From Catonia carolina (Eukaryota; Arthropoda; Insecta; Hemiptera; Achilidae): 64,000 nt of DNA. Of this stretch, positions 12,787 to 58,245 are shown piece by piece; position 1 is the stretch's first letter; the number at the start of each line of letters is the position of its first letter. The notes beneath the pieces were generated by a model. That model was given only the letters and a program-made list of their open reading frames with translations, ran no database searches and was not told the DNA's origin. The stretch covers positions 432,277,545-432,341,544 of the forward strand of contig JAQMRL010000001.1 of NCBI GenBank assembly GCA_035578175.1, read 5' to 3'. The position numbers and the translations under genes are program-made.

Positions 12787-12792
12787 TTTATT
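12787..12792 (-). promoter_or_regulatory. Polyadenylation signal for slimp
   Basis: The - strand reads AATAAA here, 45 nt beyond the slimp stop codon. It would serve the terminal exon shared by slimp and ZNF593. Confidence 0.6.
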
Positions 12793-12836: not shown

Positions 12837-14210
12837 TTAAAAACCAATCATTTTATCTTTAATAACTTTAGGAATACAAATTTCTTCTTTGCTATTTTCT
12901 AAAACACTAGCAATTAATATTGGTATTTTAACAGCAGTACAAGAAATAACATTGAGGAAACACTGTTTATTTTCATTACTGTTATAATAGGCACGCAGTC
13001 TTTTACTCAAAAAGTTTCCAATTAAAGAAACATTACCGATTTCAACATAGGCTTTATTAACAGGCGAATATAATTGAAAACTAGTACATAAACTTTCCCA
13101 CGGTTTTAGTTCATGGACGGGTACATTAACTACTCTAAAATGTACATCTAAAGTTTTATAAATATTAATTAAATTGCTTACAATATTATCAAATTCTAGA
13201 GATATATCATTATCATCCGAAACACCCACAAATAATTCAACAGCTGTTGATTGCCAAACAGAATAAAGCCCACTAAAATTATTTAACGATTTCGGATTAT
13301 ATTGTCTACCTTGAGTAACATAACGAACTGGTAAATAATTTTCATTAATAATTTGTTTCGTATGTAAACCAAAAAATGGTATGAACGAAGCTCCACCAGT
13401 TAAATAAACTTTATTTTGTTGATTTTTCTCGGTATTTTTTAAAACGAAACTTACATCTGGTGCTTCATCTTTTAAGGTGCAACCTTCGATTAAAACGCTT
13501 CTTGCGAAATCAGCGTTACAAGTTTGTACAAAATTATTATTTTTAAATTCATCCATGAAATATTGGGTTGTAATTATTTCGAATAAAGCAAGATCATTTT
13601 TTAAAAAATAATATGATGTATCGTGAAAATCTAAACAATTAAATTTTTTACCGACTTCTAAATGATCTAAACCAGAATCCGGTTTATCATTGAAACAATC
13701 TATGACAGTTTCGGTAATCGGTACTCTTGAATCCAATGTATTTGGTACCTGCAATACTTTTAAAACTACATTATTTTCGATATCCCAAATAGTTTTCGTG
13801 ATATTTTTCAGATCATCTCTAACCAATTTAAATTTCAGTTTTAATGCATCAATTTCATCATCTTTGTTTCTATCACTATTACTACTACTTAAAAGGTTAC
13901 TTAAACTTAATTTAATTTCCTTTCTATTCGATTCCAATTTATTTTTATAATCTTGTCTTGTTTTATAGAACTCCCATAATTTTTTTAATTCATGTACATC
14001 GATATCAAGTTTACGTTTCTTAATATTTTCATTTAATTCTTCGATATTTTCAACTCTTTCATTAAAATCTATGTAAGGCTGTAATGGAGAATATAAGTCT
14101 CTTGCTTTATCGCCTGTCACAAAAAGGTAACTAGATAAATGTTTACAGTTAATATTGGTAATGAATAATTTATTATAATTTTTAAAGATGCTTAAATAAA
14201 CAGACTTCAT
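12837..14210 (-). CDS. slimp: SLIMP, seryl-tRNA synthetase-like insect mitochondrial protein
   Basis: A 457-residue single-exon ORF with the layout of class II seryl-tRNA synthetases: a basic, hydroxyl-rich N-terminus (about 1-30) suited to mitochondrial import, a coiled-coil arm (about 45-150), then a catalytic-like domain. The active-site motifs are decayed. The serine-binding TAE-type region is replaced by LTGGASFIPFF (270-280), motif 2 is only hinted at by GRQYNPKSLNNFSGLY (301-316), and the motif 3 region IPILIASVLENSKEE (429-443) lacks the canonical arginine. This is how SLIMP differs from true SerRS. In flies SLIMP is known to pair with mitochondrial SerRS and affect mitochondrial function; that is family knowledge. 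The ATG at 14210 is the first Met in the open frame after the ZNF593 stop, with only 6 nt between. A true mitochondrial SerRS is disfavoured by the lost motifs. Confidence 0.9.
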   Translation of the reverse strand: MKSVYLSIFKNYNKLFITNINCKHLSSYLFVTGDKARDLYSPLQPYIDFNERVENIEELNENIKKRKLDIDVHELKKLWEFYKTRQDYKNKLESNRKEIKLSLSNLLSSSNSDRNKDDEIDALKLKFKLVRDDLKNITKTIWDIENNVVLKVLQVPNTLDSRVPITETVIDCFNDKPDSGLDHLEVGKKFNCLDFHDTSYYFLKNDLALFEIITTQYFMDEFKNNNFVQTCNADFARSVLIEGCTLKDEAPDVSFVLKNTEKNQQNKVYLTGGASFIPFFGLHTKQIINENYLPVRYVTQGRQYNPKSLNNFSGLYSVWQSTAVELFVGVSDDNDISLEFDNIVSNLINIYKTLDVHFRVVNVPVHELKPWESLCTSFQLYSPVNKAYVEIGNVSLIGNFLSKRLRAYYNSNENKQCFLNVISCTAVKIPILIASVLENSKEEICIPKVIKDKMIGF

Positions 14211-14216
14211 TTTTAA

Positions 14217-14451
14217 TTAATCGGCAATATCTACGACCTGATTTTCTTTGATTTCTTCTTCGTCTTTACTATCGGATTCTAATTTTTGCGTTTCAATTTT
14301 TCTTAGTTTTGCTTGTTTGAAGTTACCAAATCCAGCAGCTCTTTCAGATTCTTCAATAGAGTATGGTTCTAACTCTAAAGCTTTAAGTCGCCTTTTATGA
14401 ACTTTAGTTTTAAAATGACTTTTTAATGCACCCTCTTCAATAAAGTATCGC
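14217..14451 (-). CDS. ZNF593/Bud20-like zinc finger protein, exon 3 (terminal)
   Basis: The exon completes the zinc finger and the C-terminus of a 143-residue protein. It begins by finishing an Ala codon, giving [20 protein letters not shown] at the junction, with finger residues Cys62, Cys65, His78 and His84 (C-x2-C-x12-H-x5-H). Then come [20 protein letters not shown] and GFGNF, the signature tail of ZNF593/Bud20. The end is acidic ([15 protein letters not shown]). The acceptor is TTTTTTCAG at 14452-14460. The family shuttles with pre-60S ribosomal particles and helps their export; yeast Bud20 is the studied case. The stop TAA at 14219-14217 is followed by TTAAAA and then the slimp ATG in the same frame. 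Confidence 0.92.
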
Positions 14452-14704
14452 CTGAAAAAAAGAAATTCAATGAAAAACTCGCATAGATATTTGTTGTGAA
14501 TTTATTCACTTTCTTTCACACTCTTTCAATTGGTTCTGAACAAATCTGACATAAGATCCATTCATTAAAAAAAACAACACTACCACCTTTCAGCTGTCAT
14601 AATTTTACCAGGAGTAAAAAATTCAATGTTTGATTGAAACTTAATTTTATGCAGTATTATGTACAAATTAAATTTCAATTTTAAAGCATCAATTGCATCA
14701 TCTT

Positions 14705-14891
14705 TAATTTTTTTTTAACATTGCATCAACTACAACGGTCATTAGCGAAGACGTTGGGGTGTAACTTTTTGTTTAATGGAGGATGAAATGATTTTTTGTA
14801 ACGTATGAAAATATGCCGTGCCTGAGTGGGATTCGAACCCAGGACCGCATGATGAGAGGCGAGCATGTTACAAACTGTGCCAATGCGGCTG
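14705..14891 (-). repeat. Family A tRNA-SINE with TSD
   Basis: Reverse copy: T-run at 14705, tail, then tRNA-like head ending at the right with GCCGCATTGGCACAG. The B box is GGGTTCGAATCCCA. Direct repeats GCATCATCTT at 14695-14704 and 14892-14901 flank it. It interrupts the slimp-derived fragment. Confidence 0.88.
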
Positions 14892-14920
14892 GCATCATCT
14901 TGTTTCTATCACTAATATAC

Positions 14921-15287
14921 TTTTCACAGTTGATGAGCTCTGCTATTCCACACGTTTGCACCAATCAGAATGTTTGCCAGCGTTGCCAGATTGTACCTGA
15001 CAAACATTACATGTGCATGTGTATAAGAGCCGCCATAGTCTTGCACTCTCGTCTTTCATCTCGTACTGAACACATCGATTACACAATGCGTTAACATGCA
15101 ATACTTTATAATATAATCAGCTGATTGTATGTATATAGGTTATAATTTTGTTATTAAAAGACCAAAAAGATGGCTGACAAAATATTAACAGAGCTACATG
15201 AGCAAGTAGTGGCAACGTTGTTGGCAAGTAAATGGCTAGCTATAAAGTGGGTAGGGGACAATGTTCAGAGCTCATCAGCCTTGAAAA
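14921..15287. mobile_element. TIR MITE inside slimp fragment
   Basis: Inverted ends of about 23 bp: left TTTTCACAGTTGATGAGCTC, right (reversed) TTTTCAAGGCTGATGAGCTC. Slimp-derived sequence lies on both sides. ORFs of 60-93 codons overlap it without family features. Superfamily not determined. Confidence 0.65.
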
Positions 15288-16290
15288 ATAGTATAACTAC
15301 TTAACTACTTAATAGGTTACTTAAACTTAATTAAATTCCTTTCTATTCAATTCTAATTTATTTTTATAATCTTGTCTTACTTTATAGAACGTTTGCTTTA
15401 TACAATAAAAAAAAATAGAGATGTATCGATTCTCAATACCACCAGATCCTTGAAAAAATAATCAGTATTGAAAATCGATGGTAAACAGGCGAACTCCAAT
15501 ACAGATTCTCTAGTTTTCGAAATGTGGTAAAATACCGTAATTTTCTAAAATATCAGATATTAAATATTAATACAGTTGGATAATTCTGACTTGGGGAGTA
15601 AAAAGAAAATACTTTACCATTTGAAAAAATGTTTTAAATTGTTGCATTTAATAACAACTAATTTGACAAATTTTAATCTCATACTGGAAACAGACTGCTT
15701 GTTTTAATATTTGAATACGGCTATCCAAAAAAGGAACGAATACAAATGATCAAACTATAAAAGAAACCAATCACGATTCAAAACAATCAGTTCATGAGAT
15801 TAGGTTTCATAACGAATAAATTTTAGTGTATTATACACTTATACTGCTTGCATAGGTTTTCTTAAAGTTTTTGATTCATTTTATTACATAAAAAGGTATG
15901 AACAAAAAATAGTGAATGTGTCAAAGTGCACTAGATTAATATAAAACTAGTATATAGAGCGTATTTAGTGTGGTCTACAGTGACCTAACCTAAAATTAAT
16001 AACAAAGTAAACTTTGTGTTATTTTTTATTTTATTTTATTAACTTTATTTATGAAATTCACAACTGTTACAAGATAAACAACTAGTGAATATGACGGTAG
16101 GTGAAAGAATGAATGAAATGACATGAGTGACGTGCATGGAAGCACCATCCACTGACAGGGCTCCGACATGTTATTAGTTACTTCTTACTAAGTCAACGAT
16201 TAATTCATCAATTCATTCATTAATAACATTAACCGTTTTTAAAACAGGAGGTTAATTAAATTCCTTTCTCTTCCTAAAGAGGAGGTTTCT

Positions 16291-16323
16291 TAAGGAGGAA
16301 GAGGATGCTCCTCTTCCTCCTTA
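16291..16323. repeat. Perfect 15-bp hairpin
   Basis: TAAGGAGGAAGAGGA at 16291-16305, a 3-nt loop TGC, then the exact reverse complement at 16309-16323. The preceding 40 bp (CCTTTCTCTTCC and AGAGGAGG) can extend or compete with the fold. It is intronic in ZNF593. Confidence 0.85.
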
Positions 16324-16664
16324 ATCATCTTTAAACATCGTTTGGTAGATGACAGGAGAAAAGTTTACGTATCAGTTCGTTTGGATGAGCGAAAAGTCTT
16401 GTTGTGAAAGTTTTGATAAAGTAGAATAAAAACATTTGTCACTAGAGGGATGTTGAGGTCGTTATGTAAGATAGGTAGGTTTGTGTTATTGACTAAAATT
16501 TTCTGGATGATACTTTCTAAAGTAAATACATAATGAATTTAACATAGAGTTAAAACATAGAGAGAAGTTATTTATCTTGACTTGTCCTATACTCCCTTCA
16601 TGGAGTCTTCTGGATGCAGTTTATTTAAAAAACATACATCTTACGGATGACAAAAATTTAATAA

Positions 16665-17570
16665 AAAATCTGGTGTGAAACACTCACACAACTTTCTCTT
16701 GCCAATGCAAATAAAGAACAATATTACCTAACGTTAGTAATAAAACATTAGAAATAAACAAAAAACTAACCTGAAACAACATACCCTTATTCTAATCATG
16801 AGTGAATAATGTAAAATTAAAATCAACCTCAGTTTGGCTTAAAACTACAGAAAATCACTATTTCACGGTAAACTAGGCTTTGTAGAGAAAAGTGCTCTAA
16901 TTAAAAGTTGTAGATCTTTTAATTATCTATAAATTTGATTATACATTTTTCTCACAAAATGCATATGAAGGCTGAATTCTTTAAAAAATCGAATTTTTAC
17001 ACGTTTTAGTGAGAAAAAAACAGAAATTGCTAATTACAGCTAAACTAAGCGTTATACAAAAAAATATTGGAAATAAGAGTTGTGGGATTTTAAATTCTCT
17101 ACTACTTTTATTATATATATATTTTTGCGCTAACATGCATTTTAAAGTCGCAATGTTAAAAAAGAATTTTTTTTTACAAGAAAACAGCCTTCCCAAGAAT
17201 TTCAGCAGACATGGCGCCTACCCTATCATGTAGAGCATAAAAAATGTAGTAAATGAGGCAATTTTTACAAAGTCTAAGGAGCCGTTTTTGAGAAAATCGC
17301 AAAAAAGTGAAAAATGACATGAATAAACTACTTCCGGTTGACCGATTTTGATGAAAATGTTCGTGTCGGGTCCTCTAGTGGTATCTAACTTAAGTTTCAA
17401 GTTAATATGATGTTTCATTCTTAAGAAATTCTGTTTACACACACACAGACCAATCGCTAAAACATGTTTTTTGGGTTCAGGGGGTTTGAAAACATCTAGA
17501 TCCGGTGAAAAATCGACATGAATACAATACTTTCCTTCCTATATATTCATACAGGCAAGAGAATGTAAAA
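16665..17570 (-). mobile_element. Family H (HINE-like) copy H2
   Basis: Reverse copy from AAAATCTGGTGTGAAACACT at the left to GGCAAGAGAATGT at the right. Both subterminal inverted blocks and the 3' hairpin are present, and the CA run is only a few units. Small ORFs within it are by-products. Confidence 0.82.
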
Positions 17571-17948
17571 AGGGAAATCTCATCAAAAATCATTTTTGAT
17601 CAACCAGAGGAAGGTACGAGACCTCTGAGCCCAATAAGAAACAGTACATTTTTTGCAAAATACAACAGATATAGTAGAACATTATTGCAAAACCATATTT
17701 TTTGTTAATAAGGTCCTTTTTCAACGGTCAGTTCAGTTCTCATATCAATTTCCATTTCATATTAAATATCAGTTAAAATTGATGTGTAAACATCAAAACT
17801 AAAGGCTTGAACTGAAGGTGAATGCTGGCTCAATTAGAAAACCATCGAGCCACTTGTCAGTTACCCGTTATCCATTCAAACGGCCATGAGTACATTTCTG
17901 TACACACATTACATTCTAAATGTACATTATGTACATTTAGTTCATTTT

Positions 17949-18633
17949 TTTTTTTTTTTTTTTAGGGCGAACAACCTGGACGGTTATCATCGCCCGTTGT
18001 TCTACACACGGGTGTAAAGGGCCCAAGTGTAGAACGCACTCCCTGTATTACAATATAAAACTTAAAACTAGAAATATTAGAAGTTAATTTATAAATAAAA
18101 TTTATATTAAAAATAAAACTTATAAGATACACATACAAACACAAACTTATATCTAATATCACAGTAAGATTGAACAACAATTACAACGTATGAATTAAAA
18201 ATCTTACAAACTAGTATCACAGCAATGGCTGTAAAGGGGCCACGAAAATATAAAAAACATACACAAATACACATATAAAACATTAAAAATAATAAATACA
18301 CAAACATATAAATATACACTTATAGTAACTAATATAAAACATACACTATAAAATATAACAGAATAGAACAAATAAAACATTACAGATCACCCTAGACTAT
18401 CAGACACTGTTGTAAACACTGATGGATCGTAAAAATTTTAAAGTTGCGTCCAAAATAGGGCTTTCGTCACCGAGTATATTCCTTATGTCAGAGGGAATCT
18501 TGAATCGCCGACGCAGAGCTGCGTAGCAGACGCAATCAACCAATACATGTTTGACTGACAAAGGACAATCGCATCTGCCACAAACTGGAGCATCACCAGA
18601 CGTCATGAGATACCCATGGGTTAATCTGGTGTG
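17949..18633 (-). mobile_element. I-type LINE 3' end, 5'-truncated, with TSD
   Basis: The - strand starts in a reading frame TRLTHGYLMTSGDAPVCGRC, then CPLSVKHVLVDCVCYAALRR, ending at a stop at 18400. This is the Cys/His C-terminal block usual after the RNase H region of I-superfamily LINEs. A 3' UTR follows and ends in a long A tract (T-run at 17945-17963). TTAGTTCATTT occurs at 17938-17948 and 18634-18644, an 11-bp target duplication exactly at the 5' truncation point. Confidence 0.85.
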
Positions 18634-19226
18634 TTAGTTCATTTCATGTGTGTGCTCATTTCTGTCATAACCTTGTCCGTACCTGATGTCAAATAACGAA
18701 TTTGTAACAGATTTCATTGAATTATTTGGCAGTTTTCTGTGTCTGTAGAATAAACAGGAATAAGCTGATACTGTACTACTTTTACACCGGTCCGTAGTTC
18801 ATATTTTGCCCACTGCCGACGCTGTGACGGGGTTGCTGCTGCCGATAGCGCAGCGGTCACACCTCTCGTAGTGCATGTGCCAAGTGGCAAGATGTATCTA
18901 CGCACTGGCAGATGCGATAGTTGAAGGTGACCAGGCAGTATCGAGACTAACGTTATCGAAGGTCGATACGGAGGAATTGCAGCTCAACTTTGAGTCAATT
19001 CTTTCTGCTACTACACCTCCCTTCCCTACCCCTCACTTCACTGGCGACTGCTCCTAATCATTTAGGCAGTGGTAAGACGTCCTCCCCCTTCGCTTGCCAG
19101 CAGCTGCTCCTCTTTGAGGTAGCAGCAAAGGCTTCCCCAATCATCTGTTTTACTTTTTAACTACGCCACTGGATGCCCGGCCGGTTCTATGATGAGCTCT
19201 ACAGACTTGTTGCCCGGTTCTATGAT

Positions 19227-19969
19227 GATGTATTTATTCATAATAATAGTTTAGAGCATGTAGAAACAGTGAAGTTCCTGGGCGTATCTCTAGATAGATC
19301 TTTGTCTTGGGACTTCTATACCAATCAAGTTTGTAGTAAAATATCATCTGGGGTATTTGCACTAAAACAAATTGCCAGATTAAATGATAAAAAATTACTA
19401 ATGGCAGCTTATCATGGCCTCATTCTGTCTCATATCCGTTATGGTATCTTAGTATGGGGTAATTCTAGCATGGGTAATATGAATAGGGTTTTTAAAATTC
19501 AAAAGAAAGCTATTAGGTGTATGGTGGGAGCTAACCTCATGCAGGCCACTATTTAAGGAGCTTAAATTGCTTACAGTTCCCTGTCTCTACATTTTTGAGG
19601 TGATTATGTATGTTAGGCAAAATAATTTTATGCAGAATTTCAATGTTCACAATCATAACACGAGAAACAGGAATGATTATTATGTGGCTAATCACTCCAC
19701 AAAATTGTTTGAACAAAAACCTACTTATGCAGGGAGAAAATTCATAAATAAATTACCCCAATCTTTAAAGTGTTGTGAGGATTTGAATTCCTTTAAAAAA
19801 AATCTGAAAAATTACTTGATCGGTGAAACTTTTTATAGCGTACAAGAATTTCTTTCTTGATAGTAGTGATACATTGTGTGATTCTTATATGTATTTCAGG
19901 TGTTATATCTGACGACATGTCCTATATTCCTCCTGGAGTCTCCAAGGCGCAAAAAAAAAAAAAAAAAAA
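19227..19969 (+). mobile_element. 5'-truncated sister copy of the 21.5-kb LINE
   Basis: From GATGTATTTATTCATAATAA to an A tail at 19952-19969 it is nearly identical to the 3' end of the LINE at 21541-24780. It lacks 8 bp of a GCTAACCAGCTAACC region, which breaks the frame at 19556; two ORFs (19173-19556 and 19567-19860) are the halves. An ATG at 19173 lies in flanking DNA. Confidence 0.92.
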
Positions 19970-20779
19970 CTGCAACTACAAGCCGGTGGCGACAAAGTTA
20001 CCATAATACATTCAAACGAGAAGATGCGAATAATAAGTTGTTAATTCAGTATAAAAAATAAGATCCATCAGCTCTCCTTTGGTTTGTTAATGCTAATGAC
20101 AGCCCAATTGCAAATAAGCAAATTGTCATCCATTATTAACATGAGAACTGAAGTGAAAAGAGTAGAAGCATATTTTTGTTAACTGAACTGAAACTGATAC
20201 AAGAACTGAACTGACAATGTAAAAGGGGCTTAATGTTTCTGTAATGAACATTGCAGACAACTAAAGATGTCCGATGAATTGAAGGCCCATAACCGAGCAA
20301 GTGAGAGGGAGATATGTGGCATAACTACACATGCGCTCAAAGGTCTTTACGGTTATAATTCAGATCTAAAAACACTCTATTGTCATTATCTTGGCCCGTG
20401 CTACTGTGCACGTGTGTGTGTTTGTTCTTTTCACATTGTTATAAATAAGCGGCGGAAAATAAAATTAGCTGTTCATAATCAGCTGACTGATTAATTACAA
20501 AAAAAGATGCACTCGAATATTGGAGGCCATGGTAGTTTTGAATGGCTGATGTGTTAGTGGCCTAAATTGTAAGGGATTCTTCGTTACAGTGAAGTTTGTT
20601 ATTTTGTCATAAGACATTGTATTTTACGATTGATTTGGTAAGGGAAATTGTTTATTTTATTGTGGATAAATTGCGTTGTTTTAAAAGTTTAATAACTTAT
20701 TTTCATGAACTCATTATTTCCATTGTTGTCATTTTTATTGGTTAGTTTTTTTGTCAAATAATCTTGTTGAATATTTATT

Positions 20780-21110
20780 AACCCACAGGGTTGGTCTAGA
20801 GGTAAAGTCATCGCTGCGAGTCAGCTGTTCAACAGCTAATTTTCGGAAACGAAGGTTCCTGGTTCAAATCCTAGTAAAGGCAGTTACTTTTATATGGATC
20901 TGAATACTAGACAGTGGTTATCGGTATACTTTGACGGTTGGGGTTCAATTAACCATACTCTCTCAGGACTGGTCGGCCTGGGTCTGTACAAGACTACACC
21001 TCAATTACACGTCATACACATCATCCTCATCTCATTGGGTCATGGGGTTGCTAATTGTTCTGAATTGAACAGATTGCAATGTACACAAATTAGGAATAAA
21101 AAAAATATAT
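20780..21110 (+). repeat. Family E SINE
   Basis: About 330 bp. Head: A-box-like TGGTCTAGAGG and B-box GGTTCAAATCC, with a palindromic AGCTGTTCAACAGCT between them. Body shared with copies at 24863, 32216, 38148 and 49908. Ends in an A-rich tail. ATATTTATT flanks it at 20771-20779 and 21111-21119. The 88-codon ORF inside is a by-product. Confidence 0.85.
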
Positions 21111-21328
21111 ATATTTATTCAACATATGTTAATATATATTCACATTTGCGAGCTAATTAAATTAAAGTTTAAAATTTTACTTTACTATAACGAGTTGTAA
21201 CAATATTATACACTGTTCTCTAGCAAAACTATTCATTCGATCGGTATTTATTGTGGGACTCTGATTCTTACTAGCCTACATATAATTTTAACTGAAACTG
21301 AGATTTCGCGATGCATTTTATGTGCCAT

Positions 21329-21540
21329 AAAAATAATGTCTACTGATGTAAAAATTCATTAACATAGGCAAACAATCCATAACGGAGAAAGAAAACTGAT
21401 ATTACACGTATTAAAGTGCTTTGAGGAGGAAGCTAATTTTAATAGACCTTATGTCCCTATTAATAAAACAGTTGAAAGAACTTAAAATATTGCAAAACAT
21501 CCCGAAAAACAATTCGATGGTTAAAGAAAGAAGAATAAGA
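21329..21540 (+). pseudogene. Possible helix-turn-helix protein fragment
   Basis: One frame reads MSTDVKIH, stop, then RQTIHNGERKLILHVLKCFE and EEANFNRPYVPINKTVERT before another stop. The pattern resembles N-terminal DNA-binding segments of transposase-like proteins, but I cannot name the family. It abuts the LINE and may be its 5' chimeric flank. Confidence 0.35.
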
Positions 21541-24500
21541 CTGCTTGTTAGTTTACTAACAAGCAGTTTTTTAATGAGTTGGCTGAAACAAGGGATAAAG
21601 AGATAGGAAATATAAGGTTAGGTTTTATTGGTGAAACGCAACTGAAGAGGAGATCACAGGTTTTTAATTACAGTAACGGTAGGTTAGGTTTACATGATCT
21701 CAGGTTAGTAAATAGGCTGCGACCAGCTTCCATAATTGGAGTCAACACAGTTGTAGATAACCAAAACAATCAGGAAAATAATGCATCCCACTTCTCTATT
21801 TTACATCAAAATATTCAATATTTAAGTAATAAAATAGACAGGTTAGATATATTTTTAAGTTCTGAGAACCCAGATATGGTGGTATTTACTGAACACGGTT
21901 TAAAATGTAATGAGATGTCACTAATAAACTTTTCAGGGTTTTCTATTATTGCTTCATATTGTAGGAAAATGCACAAAAGTGGGGGGGTTTGTATTTTAGC
22001 TAATTCAAGTAAGAAACTTGACACTCGTAATTTACCTTATCTAGAACGGTTTTCTCGGGAAATGGTTATTGAAGTGGCTGGGGTAGAAGTTAGGTTAGAA
22101 AAGAGGGGAAAGATGGTTGTGGTGGGTGTCTATAGATCCCCTAATGGTGATTGGGGTCAGTTTTGTTCATCGTTCAGTGAACTACTGGAAGTTTTAACAG
22201 AACGATACATAAAAGTGGTAGTTTTGGGTGATTTTAATGTAAATCTTGCTGTTGAAAATAAAATGGCTGAAGAGTTTAGGGATATTGTGGAGATGAACAA
22301 TCTTGATATAAAAGTTAAAGGTTATACAAGAATTACTACTCACTCACAAACCATAATAGATAATATTTTAACAAATATGGAGAGTTGTCAGGTTAGGTTA
22401 AGGGGTTCAGAGCTCTCTGATCACGGCTACCAAGTATTAGAGATTCAGGATTTAGGTAGTCATGTCCCAAATCAAAAAAATATTAAAGAATTTAGGCAGG
22501 AAGACCAAGGGAATATTAATTGTTTGTTACATAGTTTAGCCAAAGAGGATTGGAAGACGGTTTTCAATTCATCTGAAATTAATCAAAAATATCATAATTT
22601 TATTGAGACATTAAAATTTCATTATAATAATAATTGTCCAATTAAAAAGAAAGATGTAAAAAATATTGTCAGTGAAACAGATGAGTGGGTCACAGGGGAA
22701 ATTTTGCAAATGAGGTCTGAAGTTAGAGATGCATACTCAGATTTTCTTTCACATAGGACTACCTTTAATGAACAAAGGTACAAAACTATTAAAAAACATT
22801 ATGCCAGAGAAGTCCAGAGAGCTAAATGTAAAAAAACTGCTGAAGTTCTTCATAATTCACCAAATCTAAACTCAGCAATATGGGAAATAATTAATAAGAA
22901 TCGAGGTGTAGTTAGCAACAAAAGTTTTACTGACATACCTAATATTGTTAACAAAAACAATGAACTTATAGAGAATGGTATAGAAATTTGTAATTATTTT
23001 AACAAATATTACCAGGAAGTAGCTTTAAAACTTAAACAACAGATTAGGGAAACAGTGGGATGTTATGATCCAAAAGGTAACAAGGTAGTTAATCAATTCT
23101 TATTTAGCCTAGTTTCAAGGGAGGAATTAGAATCAGTTATTGATAGTTTGAAAAGTAAGAAAACATGTGGGTTAGATGGGATTTCTAGTATAATAGTTAA
23201 AGAATGTAAACATCTTTTAATTACTCCTCTCCTTCATTTGATTAACTTCTCACTTGAAGCAGGTGTATTTCCAAACAAACTGAAGGAGGCAAAAATATTG
23301 CCTATATTTAAGAATGGAGATAGCCAGTTAGTTAAAAATTATAGACCCATAAGTATTTTAAACACAATCAGTAAAATTTTTGAAAAGGTAGTATTTATTA
23401 GGTTAATCAGTTTCTTGACTGAAAACCTAATCATCTCAGAGGATCAGCATGGTTTCCAAAAAGGTAGATCAACTAAAACTGCAATTGTTTCACTTGTGGA
23501 GCAAGTAGTTGATATATTGGACGCCGGGGAGAAAGCATTGGCAGTGTTTCTGGATCTGAGTAAAGCTTTCGATTGTGTTGATCATGAAATTTTATTGAAA
23601 ACACTAGAGTCATTAGGCGTTAGGGATGTAGAGTTGAAATGGTTTCAATCTTACCTTATTAATAGATTACAGTGTGTGGAGTTAACTAGGGTTGTTAGAG
23701 GGAAACTTACAAAAGTTGTATCTGGAAAGCTTGAAGTCAAAGCAGGCGTTCCACAGGGGTCAGTTTTAGGTCCAATTCTGTTTCTATTGTACATTAATAG
23801 GTTACCAGAAGTCATATCTAATGGCAGAGCTTTGTTGTTTGCTGATGATACTTCAGTAATCAGTAACAGTTCACTGGTAGATGCTCTTGAAGTAAATACA
23901 CATGTTAACATAGAGTCCGTAGTGCAGTTCTTGAATCAAATGTTATTAACAGTTAATGGGAAAAAGTGTCAGTACTTGCAGTTCAAAAATAAACATAACG
24001 TTAAAGAAAGTAGAGAAGTGGATGTATTTATTCATAATAATAGTTTAGAGCATGTAGAAACAGTGAAGTTCCTGGGCGTATCTCTAGATAGATCTTTGTC
24101 TTGGGACTTCTATATCAATCAAGTTTGTAGTAAAATATCATCTGGGGTATTTGCACTAAAACAAATCGCCAGATTAAATGATAAAAAATTACTAATGGCA
24201 GCTTATCATGGCCTCATTCTGTCTCATATCCGGTATGGTATTTTAGTATGGGGTAATTCTAGCATGGGTAATATGAATAGGGTTTTTAAAATTCAAAAGA
24301 AAGCTATTAGGTGTATGGTGGGAGCTAACCAGCTAACCTCATGCAGGCCACTATTTAAGGAGCTTAAATTGCTTACAGTTCCCTGTCTCTACATTTTTGA
24401 GGTGATTATGTATGTTAGGCAAAATAATTTTATGCAGAATTTCAATGTTCACAATCATAACACGAGAAACAGGAATGATTATTATGTGGCTAATCACTCC

Positions 24501-24780
24501 ACAAAATTGTTTGAACAAAAACCTACTTATGCAGGGAGAAAATTCCTAAATAAATTACCCCAATCTTTAAAGTGTTGTGAGAATTTAAATTCCTTTAAAA
24601 AAAATTTAAAAATTTACTTGATCGGTGAAACTTTTTATAGCGTACAAGAATTTCTTTCTTGATAGTAGTGATACATAGTGTGTTTCTTATATGTATTTCA
24701 GGTGTTACATCTGACGACATGTCCTATACTCCTCCTGGAGTCTCCAGGGCGCAATAAAAAAAAAAAAAAAAAAAAAAAAA
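21541..24780 (+). mobile_element. Non-LTR retrotransposon with intact EN-RT
   Basis: It carries one long ORF (21552-24662), a short 3' UTR ending in a near-palindrome CCTGGAGTCTCCAGG and a poly(A) tract at about 24755-24780. The left boundary is uncertain; a perfect hairpin (21541-21566) precedes the ORF. No ORF1 with zinc knuckles is seen, so the copy is 5'-truncated or of a type without one. A truncated sister lies at 19227. No target duplication was fixed. It lies in the sense opposite to ZNF593. Confidence 0.88.
21552..24662 (+). CDS. LINE endonuclease-reverse transcriptase
   Basis: About 1035 codons are open. The N-terminal third is an APE-type endonuclease (LHQNIQYLSNKIDRL, GDFNVNL, DNILTN, SDHGYQVLEI), which nicks target DNA. 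The middle is a reverse transcriptase: YRPISILNTISKIFEKV, DQHGFQKGRSTKTAI, VFLDLSKAFDCVDHEILLK, AGVPQGSVLGPILFL and the catalytic LFADDTSVI. All three catalytic aspartates are visible. The C-terminus has an IRYGILVWGNSS block common in Jockey/CR1-like LINEs. The start is unclear: no ATG lies near the beginning of the frame (the first codons follow a stop at 21549; TTG at 21579 is not a normal start). The element could be active only if translated from a longer or non-ATG start. Clade not assigned. Confidence 0.9.
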   Translation, partial: FTNKQFFNELAETRDKEIGNIRLGFIGETQLKRRSQVFNYSNGRLGLHDLRLVNRLRPASIIGVNTVVDNQNNQENNASHFSILHQNIQYLSNKIDRLDIFLSSENPDMVVFTEHGLKCNEMSLINFSGFSIIASYCRKMHKSGGVCILANSSKKLDTRNLPYLERFSREMVIEVAGVEVRLEKRGKMVVVGVYRSPNGDWGQFCSSFSELLEVLTERYIKVVVLGDFNVNLAVENKMAEEFRDIVEMNNLDIKVKGYTRITTHSQTIIDNILTNMESCQVRLRGSELSDHGYQVLEIQDLGSHVPNQKNIKEFRQEDQGNINCLLHSLAKEDWKTVFNSSEINQKYHNFIETLKFHYNNNCPIKKKDVKNIVSETDEWVTGEILQMRSEVRDAYSDFLSHRTTFNEQRYKTIKKHYAREVQRAKCKKTAEVLHNSPNLNSAIWEIINKNRGVVSNKSFTDIPNIVNKNNELIENGIEICNYFNKYYQEVALKLKQQIRETVGCYDPKGNKVVNQFLFSLVSREELESVIDSLKSKKTCGLDGISSIIVKECKHLLITPLLHLINFSLEAGVFPNKLKEAKILPIFKNGDSQLVKNYRPISILNTISKIFEKVVFIRLISFLTENLIISEDQHGFQKGRSTKTAIVSLVEQVVDILDAGEKALAVFLDLSKAFDCVDHEILLKTLESLGVRDVELKWFQSYLINRLQCVELTRVVRGKLTKVVSGKLEVKAGVPQGSVLGPILFLLYINRLPEVISNGRALLFADDTSVISNSSLVDALEVNTHVNIESVVQFLNQMLLTVNGKKCQYLQFKNKHNVKESREVDVFIHNNSLEHVETVKFLGVSLDRSLSWDFYINQVCSKISSGVFALKQIARLNDKKLLMAAYHGLILSHIRYGILVWGNSSMGNMNRVFKIQKKAIRCMVGANQLTSCRPLFKELKLLTVPCLYIFEVIMYVRQNNFMQNFNVHNHNTRNRNDYYVANHSTKLFEQKPTYAGRKFLNKLPQSLKCCENLNSFKKNLKIYLIGETFYSVQEFLS

Positions 24781-24862
24781 CTGCATGGATAAACGCCTGC
24801 TCACAACAAAGAGTGAAATTATTCTGAATACTGTACTCTGAGTAATAACTTATTGAATAGCT

Positions 24863-25191
24863 TTTTTTTTTGTAATCCCTAATTTGTGTACGTTGCAATC
24901 TGTTCAATTTAGAACAATAAGCAACCCCATGATCCAATGAGATGAGGATGATGTGTATGACGTGTAAATGAGGTGTAGTCTTGTACAGACTCAGGTCGAC
25001 CATTCCTGAGAGAGTATGGTTAATTGAACCCCAACCATCAAAGTACACCAGTAACCACTGTCTAGCATCAAACCTGTATAAAAGTAACTACCTTTACTAG
25101 GATTTGAACCAGGAACCTTCGTCTCCGAAAATCAGCTGTTAAACAGCTGATTTTGGCGACGACTTTACCTCTAGACCAACCCGGTGGGTTA
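24863..25191 (-). repeat. Family E SINE with 11-bp TSD
   Basis: Reverse copy from a T-run at 24863 to the head at ACCCACCGGG. ATTGAATAGCT at 24852-24862 and 25192-25202 flanks it exactly. The head keeps a near-perfect palindrome AAAATCAGCTG/CAGCTGATTTT. Confidence 0.92.
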
Positions 25192-25357
25192 ATTGAATAG
25201 CTAAGATACTAATTTTGTAGTATCAATACTATTTCAAAATTTGAGACTAGATTCCTAACTCATGATTAGATGAAGATTAGAATTTCTATAATCAGATAAT
25301 TATGGTTAGGCTATACTTACAAAATAGTAGATAGTAAATATTTGAACTGATACTTAC

Positions 25358-25458
25358 GCACAGTGAAGACAATAAAACTGTGCATTACCAGGCTTATCAA
25401 CATCTACTTCCTGTTTAAGCAGTTTAACTGCATTTTCTTCTTTCATATCATTGTCAAT
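25358..25458 (-). CDS. ZNF593/Bud20-like zinc finger protein, exon 2
   Basis: 101 nt encode [20 protein letters not shown], then [14 protein letters not shown], with the last Ala codon split. CLHC supplies Cys62 and Cys65 of the zinc finger, matching the CLxCARYFI motif of ZNF593. The donor is GTAAGT and the acceptor AG at 25459-25460. The phase fits exon 1 (ends on a whole codon) and exon 3. Confidence 0.93.
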
Positions 25459-25962
25459 CTGGAACAATATTATGAAACTTATAGGCAAATTATACAACAC
25501 ACTTCCTACTAAACACCACTTTAAGATTTCAAAAAAGTAATTTTACTTTTTTTTTACATGCAAACCATTTTTCACAGTTCATACTTAGAAAAATATAAAA
25601 TTCTGTCATATATTTTATGCTCGTGTAAATTATATATTTAAATTAGGCACAAAAATACAATTCCAGAACCCGTGGATTCAAAACTTGTGATTTTTTTAGA
25701 TGTTCTTAGCGTTCAAGAAAATGATGTTACAAATTTGTTATTCAGGAGAAGTAATTATAACAAATAGTTTTCAATTTTCTGAAAAATGGTTGTAATGATT
25801 GTTTTTAACCTTTCATGTATGACCATTTCATGGCAAGTAGGTGAATTGGAGGTTCTACATTCTGAACAAATTTGGTTTTTAATTTGTAACCTAATGTGCA
25901 TTTCAAAACAAATGTGTGGATTACATAAATAATTATTATTTTTACTAGGTAACTGAATCTTA

Positions 25963-27265
25963 ACGGATGTTTTCTTTAGAGGTATAGAACTTTAAGTTGG
26001 CAGTACTGATTTCCATGGCGGCCATTTTGAAAATTGTTTTGTAATTTATGTTCAGTTTGGTTTGCCATTTTATAATAAATAGACTGACGCCTGAACAACG
26101 CTTGCAAATTGTGCAGATTTATTTTGAAAATCATGGTTTGGTTCGTGAAATTTATCGCACACTACGTCCGTTTTATGATCGACATAATCGTCCATCAGAG
26201 CAAATAATTCGCTCAACAATGAAACGTTTTCGGTCAACATTTACTCTGAATGACAGCACACATCCTTTGAGACGTCATACAGTGCGTAAAGAAGAAGCTA
26301 TTGCTGCTGTAGAGCGTAGCATTGAGGAAGACCCAAATGAGTCCATCCGTCATCTTCCACAACAATTGGAGCTGTGTCCATCAACTTTATGGAAGATTTT
26401 GCAGACTGATCTTAATTTGCGTGCTTACAAAATCCAACTCGTTCAGGAATTAAAGCCGAACGACCACCTGGCACGGCGTGCCAGGTGTTCCCAGAATGGG
26501 CTCAGAACATGATTGCTGTTGATCCTGATTTTCACATGAAAATTTTGTTCAGCGATGAAGCCCATTTTTGGTTGAATGGCTACGTAAATAAACAAAACTG
26601 CCGCATTTGGAGTGAATGTAATCCTCGATATATTGCTGAGAAGCCTTTACATCCAGAAAAAGTGACTATTTGGTGTGCTTTATGGGCTGGTGGAGTCATT
26701 GGTCCTTACTTCTTCAAAAATGATGCCGGGCAGAATGTTACAGTCAATGGTGACCGCTACAGAGCCATGATCAATGACTTTTTTGTTCCTGAATTGAATC
26801 GCCTTAATGTTGGAGAGCTGTGGTTTCAACAAGATGATGCAACATGTCACACAGCGCGTGCCACAATCGATTTACTGAAGGAAACGTTTGGTGAACGCAT
26901 AATTTCTGGACCTGTAAATTGGCCTCCAAGGTCGTGCGATCTAACACCGCTAGACTATTTTCTGTGGGGGTATGTGAAATCGCTAGTCTATGCCAACAAG
27001 CCACAGACAATTGACGACTTGGAAGGCTACATTCGCCGCGTTATTACCAATACACGGCCCCAAATGCTGCAAAAAGTGGTCACAAATTGGACGTCTTGAT
27101 TGGACCACGTCCGAGCCAGCCGCGGCGGCCACATGCCGGAAATTATTTTTAAATAAAAATGGCAAATAATTATCTTTAAAATAAAACCAATTCCACGTCA
27201 ATTGTTCAATTATTCTGTGTTTTATTTCATTTTAAAGTTCTATACCTCTAAAAAAAAACACCCTT
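25963..27265 (+). mobile_element. Mariner-like transposon (1.3 kb) with TIRs
   Basis: TA dinucleotides flank the element (25961-25962, 27266-27267). The inverted ends share TTTAGAGGTATAGAACTTTA within about 33 bp; the outer 16 bp differ slightly in T-run length and at a few bases. It contains a broken transposase. It lies in ZNF593 intron 1. Confidence 0.88.
26048..27099 (+). pseudogene. Mariner-family transposase, one frameshift
   Basis: The first part (26048-26512) holds helix-turn-helix DNA-binding sequence (RLTPEQRLQIVQIYFENHG, SIRHLPQQLELCPSTLWKIL). The second part (26485-27099) holds the catalytic core: FSDEAHFWLNG, WFQQDDATCHTA and WPPRSCDLTPLDYFLWG. The spacing of the last two aspartates is 34 residues, DD34D, as in mariner. 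The two parts are in different frames and must join near 26485-26505, at VFPEWAQNM. One indel explains the break, so this copy is probably inactive but recent. Confidence 0.88.
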
Positions 27266-28106
27266 TATTACCATAATAAATATTAACAATAGTCATTTTT
27301 GTTCATAGACATAATTACATCACTTCCAACCGAACACACCCAAATATATATCATCCATTAATAAATAAGTAAATTTAACGCACAAAAACCCTGAATCGAT
27401 ACCAAAGGGTATATCCAGGCTTCTTCAGCTAAGGCACAAATACCTTGGATGTTAAATTACTTGATGTACAATCTGTAACAATAGCCAGTCATTCACGATA
27501 GCTTTCATGAACATGCATGAATGTAGTGGAGTTGCCAGATTACTTTTTCATCTTCACAAACAAAACTTACTTATCTATACATAATGTTTCAACTGGCCAT
27601 AGTGTAGTGGTCAGCACAAGCTAAGACTTATGTAGACACAATAACTCAAAACAATTTCCTGGCTTAATAACATCTTCCAATTACTTCCTAACATTTTGAA
27701 AGCACTGTAATATAGCCCTCTACTATAATGTAACAAGAAAAACCCTCCGTATTTTTAAGGCGTCTTGCTAAACAAGCTAAAATAATAATAAGATTCAGAT
27801 ACACATATAATGAAAATCGGTTTAATATCATTTCAGTTAACTCTTGCGAAAAAACTACTTAAATTTCTCAAACCACATGTTAAATTGAGGTTATGAAAAA
27901 ATTCTTTAAAACATTTAAAGGATCGAGTACTTTTGCACAATTCTGAATGTTACAAAATACAAAATTAGTTTTTAAAAATTCATTATCAACAGCAATTTAT
28001 TTGTTAAAGAGCCAGCATATTCAATAACAGGCTATAACAGCCACGAGTTGACCTGCTGTTATACCAAGAACGTAATAAGCATGAGATAATTCAAGGCGTA
28101 TATTAC

Positions 28107-28202
28107 CTCATCTAGATCTTTAGTTCGCCTTTTAGTCCTCCACCTTTTTTTCAAATGAGTGTCACCAAAATGGTACTTTTTCCTTTTGGTAGGTCCAGGC
28201 AT
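28107..28202 (-). CDS. ZNF593/Bud20-like zinc finger protein, exon 1
   Basis: Thirty-two codons from ATG at 28202: MPGPTKRKKYHFGDTHLKKR, then WRTKRRTKDLDE, ending on a whole codon before the donor GTAATA. A basic start followed by KxRRTKDLDEI is typical of ZNF593/Bud20 N-termini, which carry nuclear localisation signals. Joined to the other exons it gives 143 residues. The intron to exon 2 is 2.6 kb and carries the mariner-like element. Confidence 0.92.
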
Positions 28203-35010: not shown

Positions 35011-35268
35011 GAAAAAAAGATGAATAAAATTAAAAAACATACAAATTTTATTTCAAACATTTTTTCTACAATGCTTAGTTTAGCATCAATGAATGATTTT
35101 TCTTTATTTTGCTTATTAAAATCGGTAAAATATGGGATTTTTTAAGATTGCGGCCTTAGTATCCACTCTAAGTCAAAAGTATACAAATATTAACTAAAGT
35201 ATAGAAAATTAAACAACCTATAATTTTTTTGAGAATATTTTTCTTCACAGCGTCAATTAGTGATTAAT

Positions 35269-35462
35269 CCCGGCCGCATTGGCGCAGTTGGTAACGTGCT
35301 CGCCTCTCATCATTCCTGGGTTCGAATCCCACTCAGGCACTGCATATTTTCATATGTTACAAAAATAATTTCATCCTTCATTGTACAATAGTTACACCCC
35401 AACATTGTCGCTAATAACCGTTGTAGTTGATGCGACGTTAAAAAAATAAATTTAAAAAAAAA
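35269..35462 (+). repeat. Family A tRNA-SINE inside H4
   Basis: Starts CCGGCCGCATTGGCGCAGTT, lacks a few bases of the anticodon region, B box GGGTTCGAATCCCA, tail TGTCGCTAATAACCG and GATGCGACGTTAAA, then an A-rich end. Confidence 0.88.
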
Positions 35463-40413: not shown

Positions 40414-41057
40414 TTGGTTTTTAAAAACATACTTTTGAAACATATTAAGCGAATAGAACTGCACCGAAATTTACCTTAGTTTTTACCTTAGATATCCGTA
40501 ATACGTAGTTTAGGGCTTTCTAATTATAATTTTGAAGATATTGCCTGTTGTAGGCGTACCACTCCTATGCGCAAAGTATGTTTTGTATTAAGGGGAGACT
40601 GTACTTTGTATCCCGCCAATGTTAAATTTGCTATTTTTAGGTACATTTTTCATAGGATTGGTAAAAGATAGGGAAATGAAACTTTACACCCTATAGGTGT
40701 CGAGGTTTCTTCTCGAGCTACTGACATTTTTCAATTTAATCTTTGTACCATACCATTTGTTTTTTAAATTAGGCTACGAATAACATAAAATATTTACAAA
40801 TTGATTTCCACGTGTTTTCCTTATTACTAATTTTTGGAGCACCTGAGGAAGTCATAAAAATGTCGGTAGATGTGGCTATACAAGATAATTAACTGGTAAA
40901 AATTTCAGCCTGGTAGGTTCATTGGTTTCTGAGAAAAATGTAGGCCCTACCTAAGTGTTAAAAATCTAAATTAACGGGAAAAGGTAAGAAACAAGAAGGC
41001 ACAACTCAAAAACAATATGTACACAAACAAATAAATTTCCCATCAACAGTTGTTTAG

Positions 41058-41234
41058 CCGGCCGCATTGGCGCAGTTGGTAACGTGCTCGCCTCTTATCA
41101 TGCGGTCCTGGGTTCGAATCCCACTCAGGCATGGCATATTTTCATACGTTACAAAATATCATTTCATCCTCATCACACACAGTTACACCCCAACGTCGTC
41201 GCTAATGACCTTGTAGTTGATGCGACGTTAAATA

Positions 41235-41277
<43 letters not shown>
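41058..41277 (+). repeat. Family A tRNA-SINE, young, 13-bp TSD
   Basis: AACAGTTGTTTAG at 41045-41057 and 41278-41290 is an exact target duplication. Complete head (CCGGCCGCATTGGCGCAGTT), B box, tail GTCGCTAATGACCTTG and GATGCGACGTTAAATAA, then a pure A tract of about 40. Length about 220 bp. Confidence 0.95.
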
Positions 41278-49696: not shown

Positions 49697-49711
49697 TAAA
49701 AAGAAGTATTG

Positions 49712-49891
49712 GCGCAGTTGGTAACGTGCTCGCCTCTCATCATGCGGTCCTGGGTTCGAATCCCACTCAGGCATGGCATATTTTCATACGTTACAAAAAA
49801 TCATTTCATCCTCATTTACACACAGTCACACCCCAACGTCGTCGCTAATGACCTTGTAGTTGATGCGACGTTAAATTAAAAAAAAAAAAAG
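49712..49891 (+). repeat. Family A tRNA-SINE, 5'-truncated, with TSD
   Basis: It begins at GCGCAGTTGG, lacking the first bases of the head. AGAAGTATTG at 49702-49711 and 49892-49901 flanks it. Nearly identical to 41058-41277 otherwise. Confidence 0.92.
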
Positions 49892-53684: not shown

Positions 53685-56377
53685 CTACAGTTGGCCAAGA
53701 AGATCTCTTGGCCAGAGGCGCTTCAAACGTCTGCGCTGAGTACCCGGTATCGCCCTAGTGTACATGTTTTGTATGAGAGGGTTGTCGTGTAGTTCAAATT
53801 TGTCATGCATCATCTTGTATAGTTGTTTCGCGACATCAATTACGTATGGCATTTGTAAGTCTTTGTGCAACATTGAGTTTGTGATGTAAAAGGGGCATTG
53901 CGTTATCGTTCGTAGAATCTTGTTCTGAATCGCTTGTATACGTTTCGTGTGTGAGGGTTTAGCAGATCCCCAAAGTTGAACTCCATATGTCCAGATTGGT
54001 CTTAAGACTGTCTTGTAGATTGTTAATTTGTGTGACATATTTAATTTAGAACGTCTATCGAGTAAGCGTTTTAGTTGATAGAAGCGTGTTTTGAGTTTGT
54101 GGCGTGTGTGTGTAACATGTGCGTTCCATGTAAGTTTTCTATCCAAGTGTAAGCCTAAGTAGCGTGTTTGAGTAGTGTGAGGTAGCGGAATATTATTAAT
54201 GTAAACGGTTGGGCAGTTTTGTCGTCTAAGAGTAAACGTCATTTGTTGCGATTTGTTTTCATTAATTTTAATTTTCCAAAGTTTAAGCCATGACTCTATC
54301 TGGTGTAAATGGTTTTGTGTCTTTCGAGTTGCAATTACAGGATCGGCATCAACCGCAAGAACTGCCATATCATCAGCAAACATAGCCATAGTTGTATAGA
54401 TACAATTTGGTATGTCACTGGTGCTTACAGAAAACAGCCTTGGTGCAAGTACGCTTCCTTGTGGTACACCAGCATTGACTTCGTACATTCCAGAAAGTTC
54501 GTCACCTTGTTTTACTCTAAAGTAACGTTCCACTAGAAACGATTTTATTACTAGATACAGGCTATCTGGAAGTATTAGTTTCAATTTGTATAGGAGTCCA
54601 TCATGCCAGACCCGATCAAAGGCTTGAGATACATCAAGAAACACGGCCGAACAATATTGTCTGTTTTCAAGAGCTGAAGAGATTATATCAATTAGTCGGT
54701 GACATTGCTGAAGCGTGGAATGAGATGAACGAAATCCGAACTGATGATCAGGAATTGTGTTTGAAGCATCGATAAACGGTACTAGGCGTGGTAGAAGGAG
54801 TTTCTCAAATAGTTTGGACAGAATAGAGAGTAAGCTAATTGGCCTGTAAGAAGTTAGTTGGTGAGGTGGTTTGTCTGGTTTTAAGAAGAGAATTATGATA
54901 GAATACTTCCACTGAATAGGGAAGTGAGTGACTCGGAGAATGGAATTGTAGATGTGAGTTAAGAGTATGATGGATTTCCTAGGAAGATGGCGCAAAAGTA
55001 TTGAAGTAATAAGATCATATCCCGGGGCTTTGCCTAATGGCAGGTCGTGAATTGCTCGGAAGAGTTCACCGGGGGAAATTGGCTTTGGGGGAAGGCTAAG
55101 TTGCAGAGGAGCATTAAGGAAATTTTCTATGTTCGGATGATCTTTGTGTTGTAGGTTGTGTGGTTGGAATGTGTTATGTAAGTGCTGAGCAAGCATTTCT
55201 GCTTTCTCTTTATTGGTGGTCGCCCAAGAACCATCAGGTCGTTGTAGACTAAAAATGAAGGATTGTTATAGTTAAGAATTCGTCTTGTCGTGTGCCAAAG
55301 TGTTTTGTTTTGAGTAGAGAGTGTCTCAGTGAAAGCCATAAATCTATCTGCTCTGTAACGCGAAAGGACAACCTGTAAACGACGATTTAGCCTATTAAGT
55401 TCTGCTTTAACGCTGGGGTATCTGTTTCTCTGCCATAAACGACGACATCGGCGCTTAGCAACTATCATTCGACGGATGTAAGAAGGAACGTTAGGTATGT
55501 GTTTAAATTCCATGTTCTCTCCTTCGCAACTGTCCCAAGCTGCGCTTTGTAGATTCTTTGTGAAGATTTCCACTCCACGCTCGATTTCACTAGGGGTTTT
55601 GAGGGAAATTCCCAGGTTTGTTGTTTCTGACAATATACGTTGGTACTTATTCCAGTCTATTTTACCAGATGTTAGGGAATGCCTGTACCTTAATTTGGTT
55701 GGTTGAGAGTTTAACGTAAGTATTACGGGTGTATGATCAGATGATAGATCAGGAAGAGTTTCAAGTTCGTAGTAGGGGAAGAATTTAGACGATACAAAGA
55801 AATCTAGAATATCTGGGAGGCAACGATTATTGTGGGGATAGTAAGTGGGTTCTGCAGGGGCATAATAAAAATATTTTTTGTGAGTTAAAACATCATATAA
55901 AGTTTTTCCCCGCGGGTTTGTAACTCGGCATCCAAACTGTTGATGTTTTGAATTAAAGTCACCACCTGCAATGAAATTTTTTCCTAGATAATTGAAGAAA
56001 TGTGTAAATTGTTTGCGCGATATATTATGATTAGGCGGGCAGTACACAGAAGAAAGGGTAAGGGAATGAGTGATTAAAGATACTTCTACCGTGGTAGCCT
56101 GAATGTACGATTTTCTGTACGGAGGGAACGAATTATGACTAATACTATTACGAACAAAAATAGCCGACCCTGCATGGCTAGTTCCATCTGGATGTGTACT
56201 TCGATATAGTGTGTAACCAGTGATATGGCAGTGTGTTGTGTCCTTAAAGTGTGTCTCTGTAATAAGTGCAATGTCTACCCGATTGTCATGTAAAAATTGT
56301 TTGAGTTCGTGAACATGACGTACAAGACCTGCTGAGTTCCAGAGAGCAACGACGAGGGACCTGCTGGTTTCAGCCAT
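53685..56377 (-). pseudogene. Jockey ORF2 (endonuclease-RT), one frameshift
   Basis: The start ATG at 56377 overlaps the end of ORF1 by 8 nt. Endonuclease: ALWNSAGLVRHVHEL, ITETHFKD, GGDFNSKHQQFG, SSDHTPVILTL. Reverse transcriptase: YRPISLLSILSKLFEKLL, HQFGFRSSHST, AVFLDVSQAFDRVWHDGLL, AGVPQGSVLAPRLF and catalytic FADDMAVLA. The C-terminus ends PRDLLGQL. The frame breaks at about 55251-55255, where five A (+ strand) seem to replace six; downstream SLQRPDGSW then reads in the other frame. All catalytic residues remain. The protein would cut target DNA and copy the element RNA at the break. Confidence 0.92.
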
Positions 56378-57725: not shown

Positions 57726-58245
57726 TGGAAACAGGGAGGATTATTATACATATAACAATAGTTTATGAAAAATACTTACAAAAAATCAATGTAAACAGAA
57801 ACACAAACATAACCTCACACATATGCACAATTTCCGTGTCTGATATTCTATCTTCACCGTATTTTAAAATAAACTTCTCTTTCCCAATAAGAATAAAGTC
57901 TTTTTTTTTTCTTGAGAAATTAATTAATTAATTAATTTTCGATGGTTTCTCACAGAAAATCAGAAAATAAATTTATGAATGTTATTCACTATGTCGACAC
58001 CAGCTGATCAGCTGATCAAGAAGCGACGTAAAACTAAAAAAATATTATGAAAGGATTCGGATATTTACAGAAATTTCATCAACTTTTTTGTACGTTGTTA
58101 GAATAGTTTAGTTCATTTTTACACATTTTTACAGCCTTGTACATTTTTACGATTTTTATATAAATTGATAATTAAAATTAAATTTAAAAATTTTGAACAA
58201 ATTAAACATTTTCAAGTAATAAAATAAATATATACGATATACCAT

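Follow-up and report, generated by a model that had tools for sequence, protein, structure and literature searches.

A ZNF593-like gene and slimp in one exon of Catonia carolina, most likely parts of one bicistronic gene

The two genes and their surroundings

The stretch of DNA analysed here, called the window, is 64,000 nt of the Catonia carolina genome. Its minus strand carries a ZNF593-like gene of three coding exons and, within the last of these exons, slimp, which encodes a SerRS-like mitochondrial protein. The coding part of exon 1 (28107..28202) starts with the ATG at 28202, has 32 codons and ends in phase 0 at the donor GTAATA. Reading is continuous with the homologues over its splice junction, and a search of the whole genome found the segment again at 28101-28202. 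Since the acceptor of exon 3 requires a codon begun by two bases, exon 2 was located by searching for a zinc-finger half site ending in a donor; it lies at 25358..25458, is 101 nt long and is bounded by the acceptor TTGTTCCAG and the donor GTAAGT. The coding part of exon 3 (14217..14451) terminates in the TAA at 14219-14217 and contains no ATG in any frame. Its acceptor, TTTCTTTTTTTCAG, stands directly before 14451, and among the AGs scanned from 14500 to 14205 only the one at 14452 had a pyrimidine-rich tract (0.78, the rest being at or below 0.50), which bears out the first-pass annotation in placing the end of the ZNF593-like frame and slimp in one exon. An AUGUGA start-stop at 28217-28212 (minus strand), 15 nt ahead of the ZNF593 ATG, would be a minimal upstream ORF if transcribed.

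The three joined exons encode a protein of 143 residues, which the homologues match through both junctions. The exon 3 peptide matched the ZNF593 chains in PDB with an E value of 8e-13 and Bud20 with an E value of about 1e-6. Its Pfam match to zf-C2H2_jaz reached 20.9 bits against a curated cut-off of 22.6, as expected because exon 3 carries part of a finger only. The single C2H2 finger and the conserved flanks of the ZNF593/Bud20 family are present in the predicted protein, which is 82-83% identical to the protein P0027 and 65-77% identical to eight other aligned proteins. Judged from the alignments, ZNF593 is related to Bud20, and ZNF593/Bud20 has a role in pre-60S export. The zinc finger and an 11-residue stretch are common to this pre-60S factor and the protein described here; unlike in ZNF593/Bud20, the last exon here also bears the coding sequence of another gene. 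No relatives of exon 3 were found in viral contigs.

The slimp ORF (12837..14210, minus strand) is intronless and begins with an ATG in the context AAAAATG. Its frame is open from the ZNF593 TAA down to 12837, with 457 codons counted from the ATG at 14210. The best named relative was Slimp of Lycorma delicatula (64% identity, 95% covered); this match and that to the PDB ZNF593 chains agree with the gene identities proposed at first pass. In Pfam, tRNA-synt_2b scored over the cut-off and Seryl_tRNA_N under it. The five AlphaFold models had mean pLDDT values of 56.0-72.8, and the model with 72.8 fell below 50 at residues 1-45 and 233-287. The top Foldseek matches of the slimp model were the mitochondrial SerRS structures 1wle and 8ffy, with a TM of about 0.75, and the predicted structure has the class II SerRS fold of SLIMP. 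Helices 72-108 and 114-153 form a predicted long coiled coil. The N-terminal coiled coil with the tRNA-binding arginine (fly R123, human R146) is kept, R131 being aligned to human R146 in our own reading of the profile alignment; Lycorma and P0004, a slimp protein of another species, have a lysine there. In the profile alignment to mitochondrial SerRS from PDB, TAE is changed to GAS at residues 273-275, YRAE to YNPK at 304-307 and VPR to IPI at 429-431. We take these three motifs to be the catalytic signatures TxE, R-x-E of motif 2 and R of motif 3, and the catalytic pocket residues appear to be lost in slimp; the cytosolic SerRS from the same genome retains TSE, FRQE and TTR. Residues 1-33 contain four K/R and no D/E and constitute a predicted mitochondrial presequence.

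Taken from its sequence and predicted structure, the ORF shows the marks of SLIMP: a SerRS fold, a retained coiled coil and the absence of the catalytic residues. All three are common to this ORF and Drosophila SLIMP, which the available text describes as having an ablated active site, a kept coiled coil and SerRS2alpha as its partner (PMC10570016). In that same available text the sole '-cistronic' word refers to a bacterial expression construct (PMC10570016). Slimp is also described, in the accessible part of another paper, as being without aminoacylation activity (PMC4826098). A protein scan of viral contigs and prokaryote genomes found no slimp relatives.

The cytosolic SerRS gene (L004 919-2418, plus strand) is a single uninterrupted frame of 499 codons, so slimp is not the only synthetase-type gene of this genome to lie in a single exon. 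A recent retrocopy origin, considered for slimp because it is intronless, was dropped since the cytosolic SerRS likewise has one open frame.

The locus is uninterrupted, the window being free of N and one stretch of an assembly of 142 contigs and 1.47 Gb. Searches of this 1.47 Gb assembly, in which the best candidates were scored, found neither a second ZNF593 gene (only the three exons were returned) nor a second slimp gene (the locus and one cytosolic SerRS at 24% identity were returned). A DNA search of the genome with slimp also returned a decayed, partial copy in intron 2 (14664..15390, minus strand), which is split by insertions and lies outside the working unit. It repeats a 148-nt stretch of slimp (13971-13824) on the same strand at about 90% identity, with two insertions of which one is SINE-like: 14705-14664 is 90.5% identical to 13865-13824, and 15390-15292 is 89.2% identical to 13971-13871. 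This fragment is a local duplication.

Several other repeats were recognized. The SINE-like repeat in the decayed copy (14893-14708) contains the stretch GGTTCGAATCC, which we take to resemble the box B motif of tRNA, and has three more copies in the window (41057-41238, 49708-49883 and 35267-35446) at 87-91% identity. Intron 1 (25459..28106, minus strand, 2648 nt) contains a transposase-like element on the plus strand (26045-27099) with two overlapping frames, the first of which matched the DUF4817 helix-turn-helix; the second matched no Pfam family, and the term transposase-like is our own reading of the sequence. Intron 2 (14452..25357, minus strand, 10,906 nt), which is also a candidate site for a separate slimp promoter, contains the decayed slimp fragment, the SINE-like repeat and a non-LTR retrotransposon ORF of 1036 residues on the plus strand (21552-24662) with a reverse transcriptase domain and a weak endonuclease match below the cut-off. 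A second non-LTR element at 53685-57740 (minus strand) has a PRE_C2HC ORF together with endonuclease and reverse transcriptase in two overlapping frames.

The stop-start junction

On the minus strand the sequence reads GAT TAA (14219-14217), then the spacer TTAAAA (14211..14216, 6 nt), then the slimp ATG at 14210, exactly as the first-pass annotation had it. Its claim that both frames are the same is likewise correct: in the spliced model the slimp ATG lies 438 nt from the ZNF593 ATG, with a remainder of 0 on division by three. The shared frame alone says nothing, because it is expected by chance in one case out of three. Two ORFs lie on the same strand within one exon with no space for an intervening 3' end, and the 6-nt gap obliges the ZNF593 mRNA to continue into slimp. 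A candidate poly(A) signal, AATAAA, is found at 12787..12792 (minus strand), about 45 nt past the slimp stop; five more AATAAA occur within the slimp ORF (14174, 13943, 13415, 13058 and 12971).

The slimp AUG has an A at -3. No RNA structure beyond that of shuffled sequences was detected at the stop-start site, a 111-nt stretch there being less structured than the shuffles (z +1.23). The A at -3 and this low degree of structure count in favour of slimp as a second cistron. TGGGA, a motif of viral stop-restart sites, is absent from the ZNF593 coding sequence, and an Rfam scan of the whole window returned no family at gathering scores.

Pairing in other species

Contig sizes printed with the protein matches were used to infer pairing outside the host genome. 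P0027, the first-ranked ZNF593 match, and P0004, which ranked second among all slimp matches and was the best of its source (60% identity), both had a longest contig of 1876 nt. Both came from a source marked 'lgn', taken as assembled SRA reads. Their coding sequences with stops add up to 1770 nt, which leaves 106 nt for leader, spacer and tail. Because P0027 is continuous across both sites of the 2.6 and 10.9 kb introns, the contig of this relative would most simply be a spliced mRNA, of the size of a two-gene transcript. In a jitter test (+-10% of length) the 1876-nt equality itself had a P of 0.003; for an equal size anywhere in the set of short contigs (32 of ZNF593, 24 of slimp) P was 0.12. 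The equality is therefore not the sole basis of the inference, which also draws on the fitting size and on each protein being the nearest relative of its source.

In the beetle Ignelater luminosus the ZNF593 and slimp proteins carry the consecutive tags ILUMI_22261 and ILUMI_22262, and both were assigned to a contig of 396,942 bp; the tags and contig size indicate that the two genes are adjacent. The slimp-like set comprised 33 matches, 32 of them with a printed contig size (the other 8 of 41 matches were far weaker), and 2 of these 32 records shared their contig size with a ZNF593 match among the 120 of 679 ZNF593 matches listed. The remaining records count for little as negative evidence because the list covered just 120 of the 679 ZNF593 matches and each cluster is represented by its longest contig alone. 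In Helicoverpa armigera the longest contigs differ (10,338,994 vs 11,629,846), the ZNF593 record being a cluster of four sequences, and this species may be a true negative for the pairing.

The adjacency in other insects that the first pass had suggested comparing is indicated by the beetle tags and the contig of the relative; the contigs of H. armigera may speak against it there. Judged from these records, the pairing appears to go beyond chance, through the linkage across species and not through the frame. Lycorma delicatula and Periplaneta americana each have a named Slimp and no named ZNF593 among the 120 of 679 matches listed (90% clusters). This pattern fits an annotation that keeps one coding sequence per transcript, and we regard it as only a lead.

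Translation of slimp and its meaning

Bicistronic genes are already a known, minority arrangement in insects, and the statement at first pass that polycistronic mRNAs are uncommon in them was too strong: according to the part of the fly survey available, FlyBase lists 159 dicistronic pairs, of which 45 give dicistronic transcripts only; monocistronic forms exist for both genes at another 45 and for one gene at 69 (PMC4528330). In the same text, about 82% of the polycistronic loci of the fly carry dissimilar genes, and loci with only polycistronic transcripts have spacers of -34 to 319 nt (PMC4528330). The locus in C. carolina resembles these Drosophila genes in its pair of same-strand ORFs and its short spacer, 6 nt being within their range; it differs in that the gene pair is another one, the host is a hemipteran and the transcript is deduced indirectly (PMC4528330). 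Drosophila Sloth1/Sloth2 are likewise two proteins with a mitochondrial role made from one bicistronic transcript, as far as the accessible text goes; they are two small peptides, whereas here a ribosome-assembly factor is joined to a tRNA synthetase-like protein (PMC9681215). In the literature searched, with the FlyBase list of pairs outside its scope, we found no report of a ZNF593-slimp pair or of slimp in a bicistronic gene, and the gene position of CG31133 and CG3224 in Drosophila was not found there either. The matches to CG3224 in PMC2586362 proved to be CG32244.

A shared transcript, as proposed at first pass, is supported by the transcript-sized contig of the relative and by the neighbouring beetle tags, and from these we infer a shared mRNA; the further step, that slimp is made chiefly from this bicistronic mRNA and not from a shorter message, is suggested with less force. 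On balance we find it rather probable that the two genes form one bicistronic gene, with slimp translated as the second cistron of the shared mRNA. Transcription would begin upstream of ZNF593 exon 1, and after removal of the two introns the mature mRNA would consist of ZNF593, 6 nt and slimp with a common 3' end. ZNF593 would be translated through normal scanning and slimp from its own AUG, either by reinitiation after the UAA or by internal entry. With a start at its own AUG, slimp would retain its predicted N-terminal presequence. Animal ribosomes generally reinitiate poorly after an ORF of 143 codons when the gap is 6 nt, and this weighs against slimp as a second cistron, as do the lack of a structured element and of TGGGA and the presence of an ATG-free stretch with TCATTT.

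The last point belongs to a different reading, which is possible without being probable, namely that the bicistronic mRNA exists and mainly serves ZNF593, and that slimp is transcribed from a separate promoter within intron 2 or exon 3. The slimp mRNA would then start in the ATG-free stretch 14483-14211, or in a first exon that escaped recognition and is joined to 14451, and the slimp ATG would come first. No ATG precedes slimp in exon 3 and the next one upstream is at 14484, but the lack in exon 3 is not significant (0 seen vs 0.91 expected from synonymous codon draws, P 0.09) and was set aside as a sign of selection. The initiator-like TCATTT at 14418 lies inside the ATG-free stretch, yet it is one of only two initiator-like matches (14791 and 14418) in 15000-14211, where no TATA[AT]A occurs, and these counts come with no chance estimate. 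Where a fly 3' gene has a monocistronic mRNA, this usually stems from a downstream promoter, and a monocistronic form is lacking altogether at just 45 of the 159 fly dicistronic loci, in the text available (PMC4528330). Since some FlyBase loci are exclusively dicistronic and others have monocistronic forms, both ways of making slimp are allowed. Against a separate promoter, the 1876-nt contig of the relative appears to contain the full ZNF593 coding sequence and slimp; because of this and of the weak promoter signs, translation of slimp as second cistron is slightly favoured.

The CpG observed/expected ratio was tried as promoter evidence and was uninformative, 14211-14484 (1.25) being similar to slimp (1.24); the 500 nt that precede exon 3 had 0.71 and the window a mean of 0.79. 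Leaky scanning was rejected, there being seven AUGs on the spliced route to slimp (the ZNF593 start and six more), several with a purine at -3, whose ORFs all end before slimp.

Alternative splicing could also select the cistron. Exon 2, at 101 nt, is not divisible by three, and joining exon 1 to exon 3 would shift the ZNF593 frame and leave a computed upstream ORF of 36 codons ending 226 nt ahead of the slimp ATG, a layout that suits ordinary reinitiation. In the skipped form, however, a second AUG opens the ZNF593 frame again, with its stop 6 nt ahead of slimp, and we consider such a choice of cistron by splicing improbable. Stop-codon readthrough into a ZNF593-SLIMP fusion, for which the first-pass size of about 603 residues is accurate (143 + 3 + 457 = 603), is highly unlikely and disfavoured as the source of slimp. 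The frames agree and a lone TAA stands between the ORFs, but such a common frame arises by chance once in three, a U after UAA does not favour readthrough, and the fusion would bury the slimp presequence inside it; none of the 33 slimp-like matches exceeded 463 aa, although candidates could be as long as 1.75 times the query, the 7993 sharing most words being scored. Equally improbable are two independent close genes or an assembly join of two loci, the latter named at first pass as a possible refutation: close same-strand neighbours do occur in insect genomes, but here the ORFs lie 6 nt apart in one exon of an unbroken, N-free locus, the genome searches returned neither gene a second time, and the pair is indicated in records of two other species.

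The ZNF593-slimp unit is thus most likely a real bicistronic gene and probably an old one. It is doubtful whether it is also an ancient, operon-like unit of insects that predates the split of Hemiptera and Coleoptera and yields a pre-60S export factor and the tRNA-binding subunit of mitochondrial SerRS in fixed ratio from a single mRNA, by termination-reinitiation over a few bases, which would link cytosolic ribosome production with mitochondrial translation. Such a layout would entail shared transcription but no regulatory purpose, and ribosome export might only hypothetically be coupled to mitochondrial translation. ZNF593 and slimp are unrelated housekeeping genes, one serving cytosolic ribosome export and the other, being SerRS-like, on the side of mitochondrial tRNA charging. 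Annotation pipelines with one coding sequence per transcript would presumably lose one of the two. A ribosome-export factor and a mitochondrial tRNA synthetase subunit in one bicistronic gene would be a concrete case of co-expressed translation systems, and should the linkage date back to the split of bugs and beetles, it would offer a natural series on how animal ribosomes start a long second cistron 6 nt past a stop.
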